This document shows, in pieces, positions 3,146 to 22,985 of a stretch of DNA of 64,000 nt. Below the pieces are notes generated by a model. The model worked only from the letters and a program-made list of their open reading frames with translations, was not told where the DNA came from and did not search any database. Numbering within the stretch: the first letter of the stretch is position 1; every line of letters begins with the position of its first letter. The stretch is from Oscillospiraceae bacterium (GTDB lineage: Bacteria; Bacillota; Clostridia; Oscillospirales; CAG-272). The DNA lies in assembly GCA_015063895.1 (NCBI GenBank), contig SVTG01000002.1, positions 62,001-126,000 on the forward strand, read 5' to 3'. A program made the translations under genes and the position numbers.

Positions 3146-3931
3146 TTACACTCTGGCAGTCCCTTCCCATTCCTCGGCGGGGTCACATTCAAGGAGCTTG
3201 GCAACGGTCGGAGCTACGTCCTTGAGTGATGCCTCGGGCAGCACCTTGCCACCCTCGAAGCGCGGACCGATGAGGAAGAAGGGGATCGTCATATCCTCGG
3301 GGCTATCGGTGCCGTGCGTGCGGTCGTGACCGCCGTGGTCGGCTACGAAGATGATGGTATAGTCCTTTGGAATGCTGTTATAGACCTCTTCCACACAGCC
3401 GATGGCATCGTGGGCATCCTTCATATATTCGGGGCCCATCCAGCCGAGTGCATGACCGGTGTTGTCGGTATCGGCGAGATAAAGGAAAAGAAAATCGGGC
3501 TGCTGCTCGTTGATGTATTTGATGGCACGGGGGGTGATGATCTCATTGACGTCCTGATAGTTATAGCAGCTGATAAAGTCGCACACGTCAAGCTTGCCGG
3601 GGCGGCAAAGGTCGCGCAGCTGATCCCACGTGATGAAAAACGCGCACTTTTTCTTATTTCTCTTCAGCACCTCCACAATGCCGTCAATGGGGCGCACCTG
3701 GGGGGTATAGGTGTTGGTGGTGGTGCCGTGACGGGAGGGGTCAACGCTGTGAAACAGCGATACGTGACAGGGGAGCGTTACCGAGGGAAATACGGTTTGG
3801 GCATTGAGCGAATAGGTGGCCAGCTCCGTCATTTTTTGGGCAAACGGGTGCCCGCAGCTCATCATAGCATCGGGGCGCATACCGTCGGCAAGAATCAAAA
3901 TAACCTTTTCGGACATAAGAGTATCCTCCAT
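3146..3931 (-). CDS. Alkaline phosphatase-superfamily / type I phosphodiesterase-nucleotide pyrophosphatase-like protein
   Basis: ILADGMRPDAM, FPSVTLPCHVSLFH, FVADHGGHDRTHG motifs. Confidence 0.85.
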   Translation of the reverse strand: MEDTLMSEKVILILADGMRPDAMMSCGHPFAQKMTELATYSLNAQTVFPSVTLPCHVSLFHSVDPSRHGTTTNTYTPQVRPIDGIVEVLKRNKKKCAFFITWDQLRDLCRPGKLDVCDFISCYNYQDVNEIITPRAIKYINEQQPDFLFLYLADTDNTGHALGWMGPEYMKDAHDAIGCVEEVYNSIPKDYTIIFVADHGGHDRTHGTDSPEDMTIPFFLIGPRFEGGKVLPEASLKDVAPTVAKLLECDPAEEWEGTARV

Positions 3932-4370
3932 TTTTTTACTGCACCCTCATTATATAACCGCGAATTTTAAAAGTCAATACGGTTTGTGAAATTTTGCTTT
4001 TTAAAATAACAGTGCCCCGCCAAAAAGCGAGGCGTTGTGATCAGCGTGCGTTTATTTCGCTTGTCGGTGACGTAAAAGGCGTAAAGCTTTTTGCCGATGT
4101 TGGCCGTCATGGTGCTGCCGGCATACCGCATTTTTTCATGGCATACTGCTTGACGGCGGTGCCTGCTTGTGAGATCAAGAGCGCACCGTACAGTAAAAAT
4201 TCCATCATGTGTGAATCCTTTAAATTTAAAATGGAGTGGCGGACAGCTGCCGCGCATACGGTGCTTATTATGGCATAAAACAAAGTGGGTTTCCATCTTT
4301 TTTAAAAGTCTGTTGCATTATTTGAAATAAATTTTTTTCCGTGCTCGGATATTCTTCAATATATGAATAA

Positions 4371-4412
4371 AAAAGGCAATATCAGACCATTAGGAATGAT
4401 ATTGCCTTTTTT
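4371..4412. terminator. Terminator-like hairpin next to the repeat array
   Basis: AAAAGGCAATATCA ... TGATATTGCCTTTTTT. Confidence 0.6.
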
Positions 4413-5002
4413 GGCGGACGACCGATGGTCGCCTCTACGGCGTTGAGGGTATGGCTTGTAGGGGCGCGCATGGCGCGTCCGTTTACGACGCCAAATTGCC
4501 CGTCTGTGCGAGCATATTTTCAATAATTTTGGCGGACGACCGATGGTCGCCCCTACGGGGTTCAGGGTATGGCTTGTAGGGGCGCGCATGGCGCGTCCGT
4601 TTACGACGCCAAATCGCCCGTCTGTGCGAGCATATTTTCGATAATTTTGGCGGACGACCGATGGTCGCCCCTATGGGGTTGAGGGTATGGCTTGTAGGGG
4701 CGCGCATGGCGCGTCCGTTTACGATGCCAAATCGCCCGTCTGTGCGAGCATATTTTCGATAATTTTGGCGGACGACCGATGGTCGCCCCTACGGGGTTGA
4801 GGGTATGGCTTGTAGGGGCGCGCATGGCGCGTCCGTTTACGATGCCAAATCGCCCGTCTGTGCGAGCATATTTTCGATAATTTTGGCGGACGACCGATGG
4901 TCGCCTCTACGGCGTTGAGGGTATGGCTTGTAGGGGCGCGCATGGCGCGTCTGTTTACGATGCCAAATCGCCCATCTGTGCGAGCATATTCTCAATAAAA
5001 AT
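4413..5002. repeat. Five-copy 118-bp tandem repeat
   Basis: GGCGGACGACCGATGGTCGCC recurs at 4413, 4531, 4649, 4767, 4885 (exact 118-bp spacing); TGTAGGGGCGCGCATGGCGCG recurs at 4457, 4575, 4693, 4811, 4929. Confidence 0.95.
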
Positions 5003-5038
5003 TCCGTATCCCACGGTGGGATCATTGATCAGCACGTG
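4944..5038 (-). pseudogene. 3' fragment of a spoIVB-like gene
   Basis: Reverse strand reads HVLINDPTVGYGIFIENMLAQMGDLAS*, matching the C-terminus of the intact homologue at 9162-10214 (HVLIGNPTTGYGIFIENML...). Confidence 0.8.
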
Positions 5039-5220
5039 CAGTTACCATATTCCGCTTCGCTCCATGGCAAGCTTGCTTTGCAAGCATTGCGCGCCGACGA
5101 GCGGAGTGCATCGCACCAAGCGGTAACGCTTGCACCGCAAAGGAGTATAATGGGCTACCGCTCAGGAATGTGGTGGGTAAAGGACAACAGTTTTTAACTA
5201 AAAATTCATATTTCTTTGCA

Positions 5221-6474
5221 TTACCAATTTTTATCTTCGTAAGGCGTGTCTTCAACACCATTAGATTGAAGCTTTGCAACCATACGGTCAAGCTTGCCTT
5301 TCCAAAGCTTTTTAAACCAATTTGTGTTGCCAAACCACTTTACAAGAGTAGGGCTGATTGCATAGTATGTACGAATGAACAATCTTCCGTACCAAGTAGA
5401 TCCGAGCGTGTCATCACGATAACGACGAAGCGTCCATACCTGCGGACAATCGTAAGAGCCGTATACACAAGTTGCAATGTAGCAGCCAGCATTTTTCTTT
5501 ACGGTTGGACGATTAGGAATAACATAACTAGGATTAATTTCTTTGATTTTTTCGTGATATCCCATCATCTCGTCAATAAGTTTCTGCCTAAATTCAGTCG
5601 TTAAAGTAAATTCTCTTGAATAACCACCGTTTCTATATGTGTAGGAACAGGAATCTACCACATTTTGTATAATCAAAATTAAGTTTTTATATCGTCCAAC
5701 ATCTGATTGCTTATCATCATCACACAAATCTATTGCCGCTTTAAGTATCATTATACATGACGCACAGCGTTCTGTAAATGTTTCCCAAATGTGTTTTGAT
5801 GGATGCTCCGAGTGTTGGTAATCTTTGGTGATGACATTTTCCCATGCAGAGCAAACAGCGTCATTCATCAAAGAAGCTACTTTTTTGTAAAATTCAGTAG
5901 AAGCGACACCACATTTTTTTAACAGCAGCAATAAATACTGCGCTGTCATTTTTATATTATCTAAAATATCAGACGAATTTTCTCTAGAAGGATACTCGGC
6001 AAAATTATTACAACATAGTTTTATTAAAGCAGTTGATAATGCTGATATCTCAATAACTGCTTCTGTTTTGATTTCTTTAAGCTTATCCGCGGGGGCATTG
6101 TCAATTGCTTTGGTAAAACAATTAACACTTTCTTCTATTCGAATTTTTCGCAAAGTTGATTGCCAACCGGCTGCTTTTCCTTTTAAAAACCAAGCTCTAT
6201 AATATGTTGGATCTATCTCAATTATCTTGTTGCAGTATATTTCCGCTTCTTTCTTGTTCCCGGCATCATACGCATTTTCAGCCATAGTATAATAGTTATC
6301 GATTTTAGAGGAATCATCCACTCTGACGGTTCCCGTGACCTCCACTGTCCCCTCAATCATCATTTTCTTGGCTTCTTCAACAGAATATTTTGTTCCGCAC
6401 GGTTGGCATACAAAAAATCCGTCCTGCTTTACAAGGTCTGTGCTTCCACACATTTCACAAGTTAATTGTTTCAT
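5221..6474 (-). CDS. Zinc-ribbon / TPR / CFI-box-CTERM domain protein
   Basis: N-terminal CEMCGSTDLV...CQPCGTKYS ribbon, TPR-like stretch, C-terminal GCYIATCVYGSYDCPQVWTLRRYRDDTL. Confidence 0.8.
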   Translation of the reverse strand: MKQLTCEMCGSTDLVKQDGFFVCQPCGTKYSVEEAKKMMIEGTVEVTGTVRVDDSSKIDNYYTMAENAYDAGNKKEAEIYCNKIIEIDPTYYRAWFLKGKAAGWQSTLRKIRIEESVNCFTKAIDNAPADKLKEIKTEAVIEISALSTALIKLCCNNFAEYPSRENSSDILDNIKMTAQYLLLLLKKCGVASTEFYKKVASLMNDAVCSAWENVITKDYQHSEHPSKHIWETFTERCASCIMILKAAIDLCDDDKQSDVGRYKNLILIIQNVVDSCSYTYRNGGYSREFTLTTEFRQKLIDEMMGYHEKIKEINPSYVIPNRPTVKKNAGCYIATCVYGSYDCPQVWTLRRYRDDTLGSTWYGRLFIRTYYAISPTLVKWFGNTNWFKKLWKGKLDRMVAKLQSNGVEDTPYEDKNW

Positions 6475-6488
6475 GGTTTCCTCCGTAT

Positions 6489-6686
6489 TTATAATCTTTT
6501 TTGTCCTTTAACCGTAATTAAATATCTTATCTCACCTGTATCCGAAGGCGTTGTTTCAATAATACATCCACCATCAAGAGCTTTTTGTATTAGAACGGGT
6601 GTAATTCCTTGTATCTTTAACAATCTTTTTCTCGTGACGGGAACTCCAAACGAAAAGTTAATTAACAATTTATACAATTCATCCAT
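6489..6686 (-). CDS. Small hypothetical protein (possible winged-helix-like)
   Basis: 65 aa ORF in same orientation between operon genes, overlaps next ORF by 8 bp. Confidence 0.5.
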   Translation of the reverse strand: MDELYKLLINFSFGVPVTRKRLLKIQGITPVLIQKALDGGCIIETTPSDTGEIRYLITVKGQKRL

Positions 6687-6891
6687 TTTTTACGTCCCCC
6701 TCTTCATAAAAATCACATTTTGCCGCAGAACTGCACTTGTCCTTCCAAACAGGAGATTGTTCATTTGTGCAATATCGGTTAGGTGCTTTTCCTACTGCAA
6801 AAATACAACGAGAAGGATGCCTACGCTTACCATCAGATTTTAACGTTACCAGGTGTGCAGGACATCCCTGCATATCTCTTACTCTTGCCAT
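6679..6891 (-). CDS. Small Cys-containing hypothetical protein
   Basis: 70 aa ORF MARVRDMQGCPAHLV...; tightly packed in operon. Confidence 0.5.
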   Translation of the reverse strand: MARVRDMQGCPAHLVTLKSDGKRRHPSRCIFAVGKAPNRYCTNEQSPVWKDKCSSAAKCDFYEEGDVKNG

Positions 6892-6898
6892 AAAAACC

Positions 6899-7567
6899 TC
6901 ATTTCAAAATTTTGCACTTTTTATTTCGCTCAGTAAGTAATGTATTAATCTCTACAACAAGTGTCTTCTTATCCACCGCCGTTTTCATTTCCTCAACCTT
7001 GGCTGTGATTCTTGATTCCAAGTCACCCAGCTTTTCGTGGCTCATCGGGTCGCTAAAACGGACTTGTTCGGCAAGCTTTTTGAGTGCCGCTTTGGTTTCA
7101 GCGTCTGTTTCAGTTTCAACAAGAATTTCAATATCGGTTTGCAGGAATTGGATAAATACACGCTTTACCTTGATTTTTTCCTCTACACGGTTGATTTCCT
7201 TTGCGCCCGCCTGACCTGCAATAACACACAGGGCAGAGATATCAAGGATAATTACGCATATCACAACTGCCAACCATGCGGGAAGCGTCGGGAAGATCAT
7301 AAAGACCGCAAAGGCAATCAGTTGAATGATCAGATAAGTTATTCCAACGTGAACAACGGGAATGCCAAGGAATTTGCTTTTCAACGTATCCTTTTTACCA
7401 AAGGCAATCTTCCACAATGGAATTTGTACTGCAAAGGCTACAACCGCGAAAACGTATGCCGCAAAGAACGTGGCAGTTTTTTCGGTAGGGATTACAAATG
7501 CAATGACGTTAAATAAAACAAATACAATACCAAGGGCAAGATAAGACTTTAAATTATTCTTTTTCAT
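6899..7567 (-). CDS. Membrane protein with cytoplasmic coiled-coil-like tail
   Basis: Four hydrophobic segments in the first ~120 aa, then charged helical C-terminus. Confidence 0.75.
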   Translation of the reverse strand: MKKNNLKSYLALGIVFVLFNVIAFVIPTEKTATFFAAYVFAVVAFAVQIPLWKIAFGKKDTLKSKFLGIPVVHVGITYLIIQLIAFAVFMIFPTLPAWLAVVICVIILDISALCVIAGQAGAKEINRVEEKIKVKRVFIQFLQTDIEILVETETDAETKAALKKLAEQVRFSDPMSHEKLGDLESRITAKVEEMKTAVDKKTLVVEINTLLTERNKKCKILK

Positions 7568-7570
7568 TGC

Positions 7571-8758
7571 TTATCCCCCTCTCTTTGTACCGCATTTGGG
7601 GCAGAACTTACCGGGGCGCTCAAATTGATAGCCGCAATTTCTGCAAACATTATCGGGAATAGCTACCTTTGTTCCGCACTCGTCGCAAAATGCCGCGCCA
7701 GGTGTAAGCTTTGCACCGCAATTTTCACAGAAAGTAGATGGACAATCGGGGACGCCTGTCCCTACAGGTTGCGTATCTGTTCCGTTAAACGCCGTATTGA
7801 CCGCGCCGCCGACCATATTGGCAATGCCACCCCCAACACCAGCCATCATACCGAGACCAATTCCCATATTTGTGAACTGTCCCGCACCTTCGTTTTTAGC
7901 AGCGTCTTGCGCAACGTCGAATCCGCGCTCTTGCTGATAGGTATATCCTTCTTGTGCTCGTTTGGTAGCCTGTGCCTGAGAGTCGATAACAACCTTTTGA
8001 GCTTCTGTTTGTGCGTGAATGATATCAGTCTGCTGTTGTAACTTGGCTTCGGCAATATCCGCGTACTGACGGAAGTGTAACTCCTTAAAGCGTTCGTATT
8101 GAGGATCTCCGTCGGGTTTTACAATAGTAGTAACGTAGAAACGACTGAGATTGATGCCGTATTCAAGGAAATCATCGATCAGTTTTTCGTGTATATCATT
8201 TGAAAAGACTTCCAACTGCTCGTCAATTTCAAAAATGTTGATGGCGTTCTGTCGCATTGTCTGCGCCATATAGGTCTTGACCTTGGTCATCAGTACCGCG
8301 CGGAAATACGTAACAAGACTTTGACGGTCAAGATAGTTTTCCGTACCGACAAGCTTGATGAGAAGCTTTCGGGAATCCTCAACGCTGAGTGTCATTTCTC
8401 CCGATGCGCCAATGGAGATCGGAAACTTATAGGTTGGTTCTACGTACTGAACCTTAGAGTCTGTACCCCATCGGATTGCCATCTGTTCGGTTTTGTTTAT
8501 AAAATAAACCTCACAATGGAACGGTGTCTGTCCACCCGTAGGAATATTGATTATTCTACGTAGCAGCGGAATGTTCTGCGTTTCAAGCGTGTGTCGTCCC
8601 GCACCGAATAAGTCAAGTGCTTGACCATTTGCAAAAAACACGGCTTCTTGCGATTCGTGGACGATCAGTTGCGAAGTCGTATTAAAATCTTCGCACGGAT
8701 GCTTCCATATAAAGGTGCTATTGTCGCCTTCATATTTGATAATATCGGCTATTGCCAT
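7571..8758 (-). CDS. SPFH-domain (YdjI/virion-core-like) protein with C-terminal double zinc ribbon
   Basis: MAIADIIKYEGDNSTFIWKHPCEDFNTTSQLIVHESQEAVFF; CENCGAKLTPGAAFCDECG...CRNCGYQFERPGKFCPKCG. Confidence 0.88.
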   Translation of the reverse strand: MAIADIIKYEGDNSTFIWKHPCEDFNTTSQLIVHESQEAVFFANGQALDLFGAGRHTLETQNIPLLRRIINIPTGGQTPFHCEVYFINKTEQMAIRWGTDSKVQYVEPTYKFPISIGASGEMTLSVEDSRKLLIKLVGTENYLDRQSLVTYFRAVLMTKVKTYMAQTMRQNAINIFEIDEQLEVFSNDIHEKLIDDFLEYGINLSRFYVTTIVKPDGDPQYERFKELHFRQYADIAEAKLQQQTDIIHAQTEAQKVVIDSQAQATKRAQEGYTYQQERGFDVAQDAAKNEGAGQFTNMGIGLGMMAGVGGGIANMVGGAVNTAFNGTDTQPVGTGVPDCPSTFCENCGAKLTPGAAFCDECGTKVAIPDNVCRNCGYQFERPGKFCPKCGTKRGG

Positions 8759-8883
8759 AGCGTTCTCCTTTTCAAAACAGATGCGGGCTATTTATAGCTC
8801 GTATTGTATCATATATAGCCTATTTTGTCAAGTGTTTTGGGCTATAATTAGTCTAAAATCACGAAAGAGGATATTATATAGAT

Positions 8884-9120
8884 ATGTATACGGCTGTGAA
8901 AAACAGAATTTTGCAATTGCTTGGTGAAAAGAGAATGTCAATACACCGCCTTGCGATGGAATCGGCTGTCGCGCCATCGTCTATAAAAAATATACTTTAT
9001 GGAAAAAGTCAAAATCCCGGAATCGTTACATTAAAGATGCTTTGCGACGGATTTGGGATAACGATTGTTGAATTTTTTGACACTGAAGAATTCAGGAATT
9101 TAGAACAGGAAATTCAATAA
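8884..9120 (+). CDS. XRE-family HTH regulator
   Basis: MSIHRLAMESAVAPSSIKNILYGK HTH; divergent from SPFH operon. Confidence 0.88.
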   Translation: MYTAVKNRILQLLGEKRMSIHRLAMESAVAPSSIKNILYGKSQNPGIVTLKMLCDGFGITIVEFFDTEEFRNLEQEIQ

Positions 9121-9160
9121 AACAAGGCAATCTCATCCAAGTTGATGAGATTGCCTTGTT
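9121..9160. terminator. Bidirectional terminator
   Basis: AACAAGGCAATCTCATC CAAGTT GATGAGATTGCCTTGTT, 17-bp perfect stem. Confidence 0.85.
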
Positions 9161-9161
9161 A

Positions 9162-10214
9162 TTATCCTGCCTTCGCCATGGGAATTTGCGCAGCATTTAA
9201 CATATTCTCAATAAAAATTCCGTACCCCGTGGTGGGGTTGCCGATCAGCACGTGGGTAATGGCGCCGACGAGCTTTCCGTTTTGAATGATCGGGCTGCCG
9301 CTCATACCCTGCACGATGCCGCCTGTTTTTTCAAGCAGCGCTTCGTCGGTGACGGTAACGGTAAAGCACTTGTTATCCTTGGCTGCGCGGTGAATATCCG
9401 AAATTTTCACCGTGTATTCCTGCGGGCCCTCATCGTCAAGCGTGCACCAGCAGGTAGCAACGCCCTCGTGCAGCTCGTCGCGGTGACCGACGGGCAACAG
9501 ACCCGCTGTGGTCGGCTGCGGATCGGTCAGCACACCAAATACGCCACAGGGGGTGTTGGTGGTCAGCGCACCGATTTTGGCAGCTGTAAATTGCCCCTTT
9601 AATTCGCCCGGGGTGCCTACCGCACCGCGCTTTACGTCATGGATGGATACGCCCATGACGGTGCCGCGCGACAGTGGAACAAGACAGCCGCTGGCGCCGT
9701 CGCAGATCCCGTGACCAAGGCCGCCGAAGTCTTTGCCGTTTGCGTGGATATAGGTGACGGTGCCGATGCCCGCACCCGTATCACGCACCCAAAGGCCGCA
9801 TCGCCAATGTCCGTCGCTGTCACACGCAAGAGGAGAAAGCGTAACGCTTTTTACTTCCTCGTCGCGCCGCAGCGTCAGCGTCAGCGGTGCTTCTTTCCCG
9901 TTTTCAATCATTTCTGCCAATGCTTTTGCGCTCTCAACGCTTTGGCCGTTTATTTTGGTGATACAGTCACCCGGTCGCACACCTGCCGCCTTGGCTGGAT
10001 TTTTGGCGTGCCCGCCCGAGGTCACGTCACAGTAACCGACCACCATAATGCCGTCTGTTACGTAGCGTACGCCAAACGCGCCACCCCCGACAAATACGTG
10101 TTCGCGCTGTGGCAAAGCGGCACCGACGGGCAATAGCAGTGCGCAGAGCAAAACGCTACATAATAAAAGAGCAAGCAGGGCCTTAGCGCTTGTTTTTTTA
10201 AAATTTCTGTTCAT
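9162..10214 (-). CDS. spoIVB: SpoIVB peptidase (S55) with PDZ domain
   Basis: PDZ (AGVRPGDCITKINGQ), GMSGSPIIQNGKLVGAITHVLIGNPTTGYGIFIENML. Confidence 0.9.
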   Translation of the reverse strand: MNRNFKKTSAKALLALLLCSVLLCALLLPVGAALPQREHVFVGGGAFGVRYVTDGIMVVGYCDVTSGGHAKNPAKAAGVRPGDCITKINGQSVESAKALAEMIENGKEAPLTLTLRRDEEVKSVTLSPLACDSDGHWRCGLWVRDTGAGIGTVTYIHANGKDFGGLGHGICDGASGCLVPLSRGTVMGVSIHDVKRGAVGTPGELKGQFTAAKIGALTTNTPCGVFGVLTDPQPTTAGLLPVGHRDELHEGVATCWCTLDDEGPQEYTVKISDIHRAAKDNKCFTVTVTDEALLEKTGGIVQGMSGSPIIQNGKLVGAITHVLIGNPTTGYGIFIENMLNAAQIPMAKAG

Positions 10215-22935: not shown

Positions 22936-22985
22936 TGTAGGGGCGACCATTGGTCGTCCGCGGACGTGCAATGCACGCCCCTACA
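22936..22985. repeat. 50-bp REP-like palindromic element
   Basis: TGTAGGGGCG-ACCATTGGT-CGTCCG-CGGACG-TGCAATGCA-CGCCCCTACA; terminal and internal inverted repeats. Confidence 0.85.

Follow-up and report, generated by a model that had tools for sequence, protein, structure and literature searches.

The 64,000-nucleotide stretch analysed here (hereafter designated the window) contains a spoIVB gene that appears to have been entered by a cassette bringing a 3′ end of its own, and the native end of the gene, carrying a tandem array of its last codons and a REPIN, lies displaced behind the insert. Taken as a whole, this three-step explanation, that is, insertion of a REPIN behind spoIVB, joint growth of the gene tail and the REPIN, and entry of a cassette at spoIVB, has in our estimate a probability of about 0.8. 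Cassette insertion at spoIVB looks like a process that is repeated in the family and follows an undescribed site-specific route, as far as can be judged from sequence comparison.

Cassette in the spoIVB gene of the window

Table 1 Features of the spoIVB region in the window (positions are those of the window)
Feature	Position	Strand	Remark
Phosphodiesterase-like gene; directly behind spoIVB in G017	3146..3931	-	79% DNA identity over 780 nt
Hairpin terminator past the array; spoIVB terminator type as after the single REPIN in G004 and G005	4370..4412	-	
Tandem array; each of its five 118-bp units joins spoIVB tail, stop codon and REPIN	4409..4998	-	
REP type GTAGGGGCGACCATCGGTCGTCCG, unit 4	4769..4792	-	GTAG unpaired, 8-bp stem, z -2.9
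REP type GTAGGGGCGACCATCGGTCGTCCG, remaining units	4415-4438, 4533-4556, 4651-4674, 4887-4910		
REP type GTAGGGGCGCGCATGGCGCGTCCG, unit 4	4812..4835	+	
REP type GTAGGGGCGCGCATGGCGCGTCCG, remaining units	4458-4481, 4576-4599, 4694-4717, 4930-4953		
spoIVB tail (IENMLAQMGDLAS, stop) in unit 5, running on into the gene remnant; units 1-4 repeat it	4955..4998	-	
Displaced native 3′ end of spoIVB, starting with SGSP at 5164	4955..5164	-	
Interruption of the displaced end by 108 nt that include palindromic stretches	5039..5146	.	
Right-end motif TTGTCCTTTACCCACCACATTCC, immediately before ^TGAGCGG	5165..5187	-	
Inserted cassette: new spoIVB 3′ end, terminator, cargo, right-end motif	5165..9304	-	Boundaries drawn from relatives and the empty site in G017
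Cargo: zinc ribbon / TPR / CFI-box-CTERM protein, 417 aa	5221..6474	-	
Cargo: 222-aa protein, no family match	6899..7567	-	
Cargo: SPFH/Band 7 and double zinc ribbon protein, 395 aa	7571..8758	-	
Cargo: Cro/C1-type HTH regulator, 78 aa	8884..9120	+	
Cassette-borne spoIVB 3′ end (SGSP...NAAQIPMAKAG, stop), completing the intact gene	9162..9304	-	
Intact spoIVB (Peptidase_S55 and PDZ)	9162..10214	-	PF05580 E = 2.4e-73

At the junction 5164/5165, the sequence reads TTGTCCTTTACCCACCACATTCC^TGAGCGG (the caret marking the junction), and past the 108-nt block the remnant of spoIVB resumes at position 5038. The empty site was found in genome G017, in which spoIVB is followed directly by the phosphodiesterase gene that in the window lies beyond the remnant. 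This comparison thus identifies 5165–9304 (4.14 kb) as an insert that gave spoIVB a new 3′ end, with the tail NAAQIPMAKAG, and displaced the native one, demonstrating at the sequence level a cassette in spoIVB whose own 3′ end keeps the gene whole. Because spoIVB sequence is shared to the right of the junction, the true crossover may be offset by a few bases, in either direction, from the point drawn here.

The earlier note on this DNA, made from its letters and open reading frames, had rightly seen that spoIVB sequence continues beyond the rightmost unit of the array; this sequence matches PF05580 at positions 192–210 (E = 2e-4) and is 85% identical in DNA over 54 nt to the intact gene. The intact spoIVB 4.2 kb away on the same strand had been missed, as had the reach of the remnant to 5164 across the 108-nt block. 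The supposed stray copy is in fact the original 3′ end of the intact neighbour gene, left displaced by an insertion that looks site-specific. A random duplication of spoIVB as the source of the remnant was ruled out by its fixed start codon and the motif.

Blocks containing a palindrome that resembles GCAAGCTTGC interrupt displaced ends just before the codons HVLI in the window, G016 and G298, and do not occur in intact genes. The block in the window replaces about 34 nt of the displaced end; it was rejected as a dispersed repeat, since its own genome holds no second full copy.

Displaced spoIVB ends across the family

Matches to spoIVB were obtained in 19 of the 21 genomes of the same genus, and extra C-terminal fragments in nine, that of the window included. 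The fragments of G003, G004, G006, G007 (two), G008, G013 and G015 start at or next to GM^SGSP, and a motif close to GTTGTCCTTTATTGACCACACTC(C/G) precedes them; G016 also fits. In its strict form, the motif gave 10 matches in the 21 genomes of the genus and 14 in 298 genomes of the family, with zero matches of the reversed control in both sets. Moreover, all 14 family matches, as well as an extra match at G007:C39, are directly followed by spoIVB codons. A scan of GTDB species for the motif together with spoIVB codons returned 29 stretches, all from Clostridia or Oscillospiraceae MAGs, and the stretches with a stated source came from the ruminant gut. The motif was absent from the viral contigs of IMG/VR, and a phage origin of the cassettes was rejected on this ground.

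For the family survey, 120 genomes that are at least 90% complete were searched, and a C-terminal probe of 44 residues matched 108 of them. Displaced ends starting at SGSP occur in at least 16 of these 108 genomes, belonging to 14 genera, and reach about eight in G028. Variant motifs, such as TTGTCCCTAATGAACATCGAATGTG and TTGGTCCTATATTGACACACTCGTG, stand at the corresponding place in loci read from these genomes. The hexamer TTGTCC lies near position −25 in 42 of the 54 distinct SGSP-starting displaced ends, in contrast to none of 33 intact genes, and the junction consensus is CTC(C/G)^TG(AGC/TCG)GG. In the strict-motif set, conservation fades about 20–25 nt upstream of the motif, and the cargo differs beyond.

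Stacks of several displaced spoIVB ends are present at the loci L204 and L205 (G028, C4 and C9) and L207 (G058, C72), where the reading frame is mostly intact up to MLDAA(A/S) and the stop codon, and one or a few genes in either orientation lie between the ends. From the TTG box to GYGIF, nearly all ends without an interruption span 100 nt.

Probable exchange and cargo of the cassettes

Over 866 nt, the second displaced end of G007 and its cargo share 97% identity with a stretch of another species, G008, that comprises the intact spoIVB end and the cargo behind it. The identity is 100% in the first 60 nt past the junction and 25–40% (unrelated) before it, and the host genes upstream are about 76% identical between the two genomes. 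Presumably, this cassette has moved horizontally with a sharp boundary. Cassettes with Phd/Doc pairs recur in G004, G016, G170 and G228 (three genera), and a glycyl-radical-enzyme cassette is found in both G007 and G013. Pairwise identities of the 5′ and 3′ parts of spoIVB are loosely correlated (r = 0.50 for 231 pairs).

The cargo consists mostly of catabolic operons or toxin-antitoxin pairs, sometimes in tandem stacks, and several genomes have two or more tandem cassettes. Pfam matches include AraC- and IclR-type regulators, pyruvate-formate-lyase-like glycyl radical enzymes with radical-SAM activases, FGGY kinase, GH120 and GH5 glycosidases, a sugar-isomerase-like protein, SIS and BadF proteins, and Fic/Phd toxin-antitoxin pairs.

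Candidate recombinases and homologous recombination

A pattern search for tyrosine and serine recombinases over the loci read recognized none in the cassettes, and a cassette-encoded enzyme of either kind was set aside for want of a convincing match. No excised cassette circle was seen, and PF00589, a general tyrosine recombinase profile that is not specific to IntI, had no match near spoIVB in six genomes. Searching these genomes with PF00589 and PF00239, we found that a Xer-like enzyme is the only one common to all, the empty-site genome G017 included. As the only tyrosine recombinase shared by the six genomes, it is the first candidate for a recombinase acting at spoIVB. In the loci L183–L188, a single Xer-like tyrosine recombinase of 346–357 aa is encoded, about 60% identical across genera. 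Two other candidates were rejected: a mobile integrase of 327 aa, with 91% identity between G000 and G114, is unmatched among the hits of G016 though this genome has a cassette, and serine recombinases are absent from G110.

Alternatively, the displaced ends and stacks may have formed by ordinary homologous recombination, a circle or fragment with cargo and a spoIVB 3′ end crossing over with the end of the resident gene, with no dedicated recombinase. Each cassette indeed contains 100–150 nt of spoIVB homology, the intact and displaced ends of G003 and G015 are identical in the first 43–65 nt after the junction, and the lack of a recombinase in the cassettes read points in the same direction. 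We nevertheless consider this origin unlikely, because all 54 SGSP-starting ends have one boundary, with a conserved motif of about 25 nt and about 20 nt of A/T-rich conservation, and homologous recombination alone would not keep such a boundary while swapping the unrelated cargo that abuts it.

Anatomy of the array

The array at the end of the displaced spoIVB is the sole tandem array of the window (TRF: period 118, 5.0 copies, 96% matches, score 1082), which bears out the earlier description of five 118-bp units, each with a spoIVB tail and stop codon. On the minus strand, every unit consists of a 44-nt spoIVB end with the stop codon, 1 nt, a 24-nt REP, a 19-nt spacer, an inverted 24-nt REP and CCAAAA. 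The REP part is therefore a complete inverted pair, not the half-element supposed before, and the spacer, given before as 18 nt, measures 19 nt. The spoIVB end reads IENMLAQ(T/M)G(D/N)LAS-stop, with 13 native codons and the stop repeated. The tail IIENML proposed earlier is correct in that a spoIVB end occurs in every unit, but its first Ile is made at the unit junction, from the A of the previous unit and TT. The rightmost unit runs on into the spoIVB codons HVLINDPTVGYGIFIENML.

The two REPs of a unit read GTAGGGGCG-ACC-ATC-GGT-CGTCCG and GTAGGGGCG-CGC-ATG-GCG-CGTCCG (hyphens setting off the varying part of the stem). Each folds into an 8-bp hairpin with an unpaired GTAG, in keeping with REPINs and BIMEs, in which an imperfect palindrome of 20–40 nt comes after a GTAG foot, and the folding of the pair beats that of shuffled sequence (z −3.3, DNA parameters). 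The array as a whole is thus built of head-to-tail units of a REPIN plus flanking DNA. Two substitutions in the REPIN are common to units 1 and 5 and absent from units 2–4, which suggests a later exchange among units.

REP family and RAYT-like genes of the genome

REPINs composed of inverted GTAG-type REPs are thought to be moved by RAYT transposases. The genome of the window holds 54 REP copies with up to two mismatches on eight contigs, mostly paired, and the reversed pattern gave 0 matches, so that the family is dispersed in the manner of REPINs and BIMEs. The stems vary in a compensated way (ACC/GGT, TGC/GCA and CGC/GCG). Further tandem arrays consist of units of about 125 bp with two alternating REP types (C1 and C16) or of 48-bp units with single REPs (C24 and C27).

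The transposase genes that the earlier note had led one to expect are represented by two RAYT-like genes. The one on C1 matches NF047646 with E = 2.7e-18 at 66 bits, against a cut-off of 80, and Y1_Tnp weakly; it is surrounded by REP arrays, and we count it as a RAYT gene flanked by its cognate REPs. The other, a Y1 transposase on C17, lies above the Pfam cut-off.

The RAYT-like gene on C1 (L033:2602-3099; G000 C1:37101-37598) has two REPs within its own coding sequence, where the 24-bp repeats are read in frame as 8 residues, VGATIGRP in one direction and GRPMVAPT in the other. The Y1/RAYT-like transposase on C17 (L101:1315-1866, 183 aa) contains VGDGALDVPR and GTSRAPSPT, two stretches that look as if another type of REP had been copied in frame. 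Elsewhere in the window, at 22936–22985, a perfect head-to-head REP pair (GTAGGGGCGACCATTGGTCGTCCG / CGGACGTGCAATGCACGCCCCTAC) lies with no spacer. In G002, G003 and G015, TAGGG-footed REP-like palindromes lie between the spoIVB stop codon and the terminator; this spot thus seems to have been struck by different REP types.

Growth of the array

In G004 and G005, the intact spoIVB is followed by its stop codon, one REPIN and a terminator starting with AAGGCAATATCATTCC. G008 has the same order of stop codon, REPIN and terminator on a displaced end, and G013 has the stop codon and the terminator with no REPIN. From the single-REPIN state in G004, G005 and G008, we infer that gene, stop codon, REPIN and terminator is the ancestral order and that the array arose by local tandem growth, which upholds the earlier proposal of a REP insertion immediately behind the spoIVB stop codon, here of a REP pair, with later amplification of REP and gene end together.

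The first step was thus the entry of a REPIN between the spoIVB stop codon and the terminator in an ancestor, as comparison with the relatives shows. In the second, to which the units themselves testify, the REPIN and its flank, the last 44 nt of spoIVB, were duplicated head to tail until five units were reached; the most likely course is that replication went wrong at the hairpins and unequal exchange came after. The new unit junction joins CCGCCAAAA to TTATTGAG. Its parental sequences, CCAAAA^AAGG and AATTT^TTATTG, share no direct microhomology; the A-run and the T-run at the unit ends could pair in single-stranded DNA, drawing the ends together. In the third step, the 4.14-kb cassette entered spoIVB at GM^SGSP with its own 3′ end, leaving the gene whole and, by comparison with the empty site, shifting the native end with its tail, array and terminator 4.2 kb downstream. 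This step is an instance of an apparently site-specific process found across the family, by which cassettes enter spoIVB at a fixed site and stack there in tandem, presumably as mobile units and through a recombinase. Array growth and cassette entry may have occurred in either order.

It appears improbable that, instead of tandem duplication, RAYT transposases built the array by moving one REPIN after another into or next to those already there. RAYT-like genes are present and one is embedded among REP arrays; yet each unit holds 44 nt of spoIVB DNA private to this locus at an exact spacing of 118 bp, a REPIN moving alone would not bring spoIVB DNA with it, and the unit boundary does not coincide with the GTAG foot. 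Less probable still is that the array or its copy number is an artefact of short-read metagenome assembly. All sequences are MAGs, mostly from short-read assemblies, this one being in 36 contigs, and at 590 bp the array is longer than a short read, so the unit count is provisional; against an artefact, the units differ among themselves at several positions, the array lies between two unique flanks, and its outer junctions recur in the relatives with a single copy. That the spoIVB-like tail, present in every unit, is an intrinsic part of the REP family and no gene end was captured can be dismissed, because the 54 REPs of the genome occur in other contexts, significant matches to the tail were confined to spoIVB loci in this and 20 same-genus genomes (all other significant matches covering REPs only), as the earlier note's reading required, and the tail in relatives is the end of a complete spoIVB with one REPIN behind it. 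Tandem growth of the gene tail with the REPIN is thus the reading that we retain.

Discussion

Collectively, we give somewhat better than even odds to the view that spoIVB is the anchor of a cassette system that is like integrons and restricted to a single family of ruminant-gut clostridia. In such a system, a trans-acting recombinase would insert compact metabolic or toxin-antitoxin cassettes at GM^SGSP. Each would bring a TTGTCC-type end site and a replacement for the spoIVB 3′ end, which would let as many as about eight cassettes stack up while the protease gene remains unbroken. If this is confirmed, spoIVB would be a chromosomal entry site for interchangeable catabolic operons in more than a dozen genera of gut clostridia, each genome would hold at spoIVB a readable stack of past acquisitions, and the system would be a counterpart of integrons anchored to a sporulation gene and a route for the exchange of carbohydrate-use genes in ruminant microbiomes. 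We found no paper on an element or integrase targeting spoIVB in a literature of incomplete coverage, and the cassette site is thus likely, though not certain, to be new.

The array alone is ordinary. REPIN arrays with flanking DNA in their units have been described in Pseudomonas fluorescens SBW25 (PMC3116915) and among GTAG REP clusters (PMC3733652, the main text of which does not mention Firmicutes or Clostridia), and these, together with the BIMEs of E. coli (PMC8266576), are among the closest known tandem arrays. The array of the window is thus of a known kind: an inverted pair of GTAG-footed REPs is repeated head to tail with flanking DNA, and the genome has RAYT-like genes, one of them flanked by arrays. 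It differs in its host, a gut clostridium, and in its peculiar flank, for which a protein gene has supplied its end and stop codon. That a gene end and stop codon can ride along in REPIN amplification is a small addition to a known process; the significance of the array is that it marks the displaced spoIVB end.

Among elements that integrate into genes, the SP-beta prophage likewise targets a sporulation gene, spsM (PMC4191935), but the insert described here brings the 3′ end of spoIVB with it, so that the gene is whole and excision is not needed for function. ICEs and IMEs can target a protein gene at its 3′ end and leave the gene restored, and CIMEs are att-flanked derivatives without an integrase (reviewed in PMC5704250). 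The spoIVB cassettes resemble these in that one flank has the restored gene end and the opposite flank the displaced one, in the manner of attL and attR, and in their tandem accretion. Unlike them, the cassettes read are small, mostly single operons, without conjugation, phage or integrase genes, and no parental element with an integrase at the spoIVB site was seen among the loci read, which are not exhaustive.

Compared with integrons, the GTTRRRY core is absent at the spoIVB junction, and an attC core was rejected for the 54 displaced ends with their consensus given above; no integrase gene was recognized beside the spoIVB site in the loci read, the spoIVB cassettes frequently comprise an entire operon and its regulator, and they enter within a protein gene, which each of them completes. 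As in integron cassette arrays, however, there is one chromosomal entry site at which varied cargo is stacked in tandem, and a conserved sequence resembling a recombination site ends each cassette.
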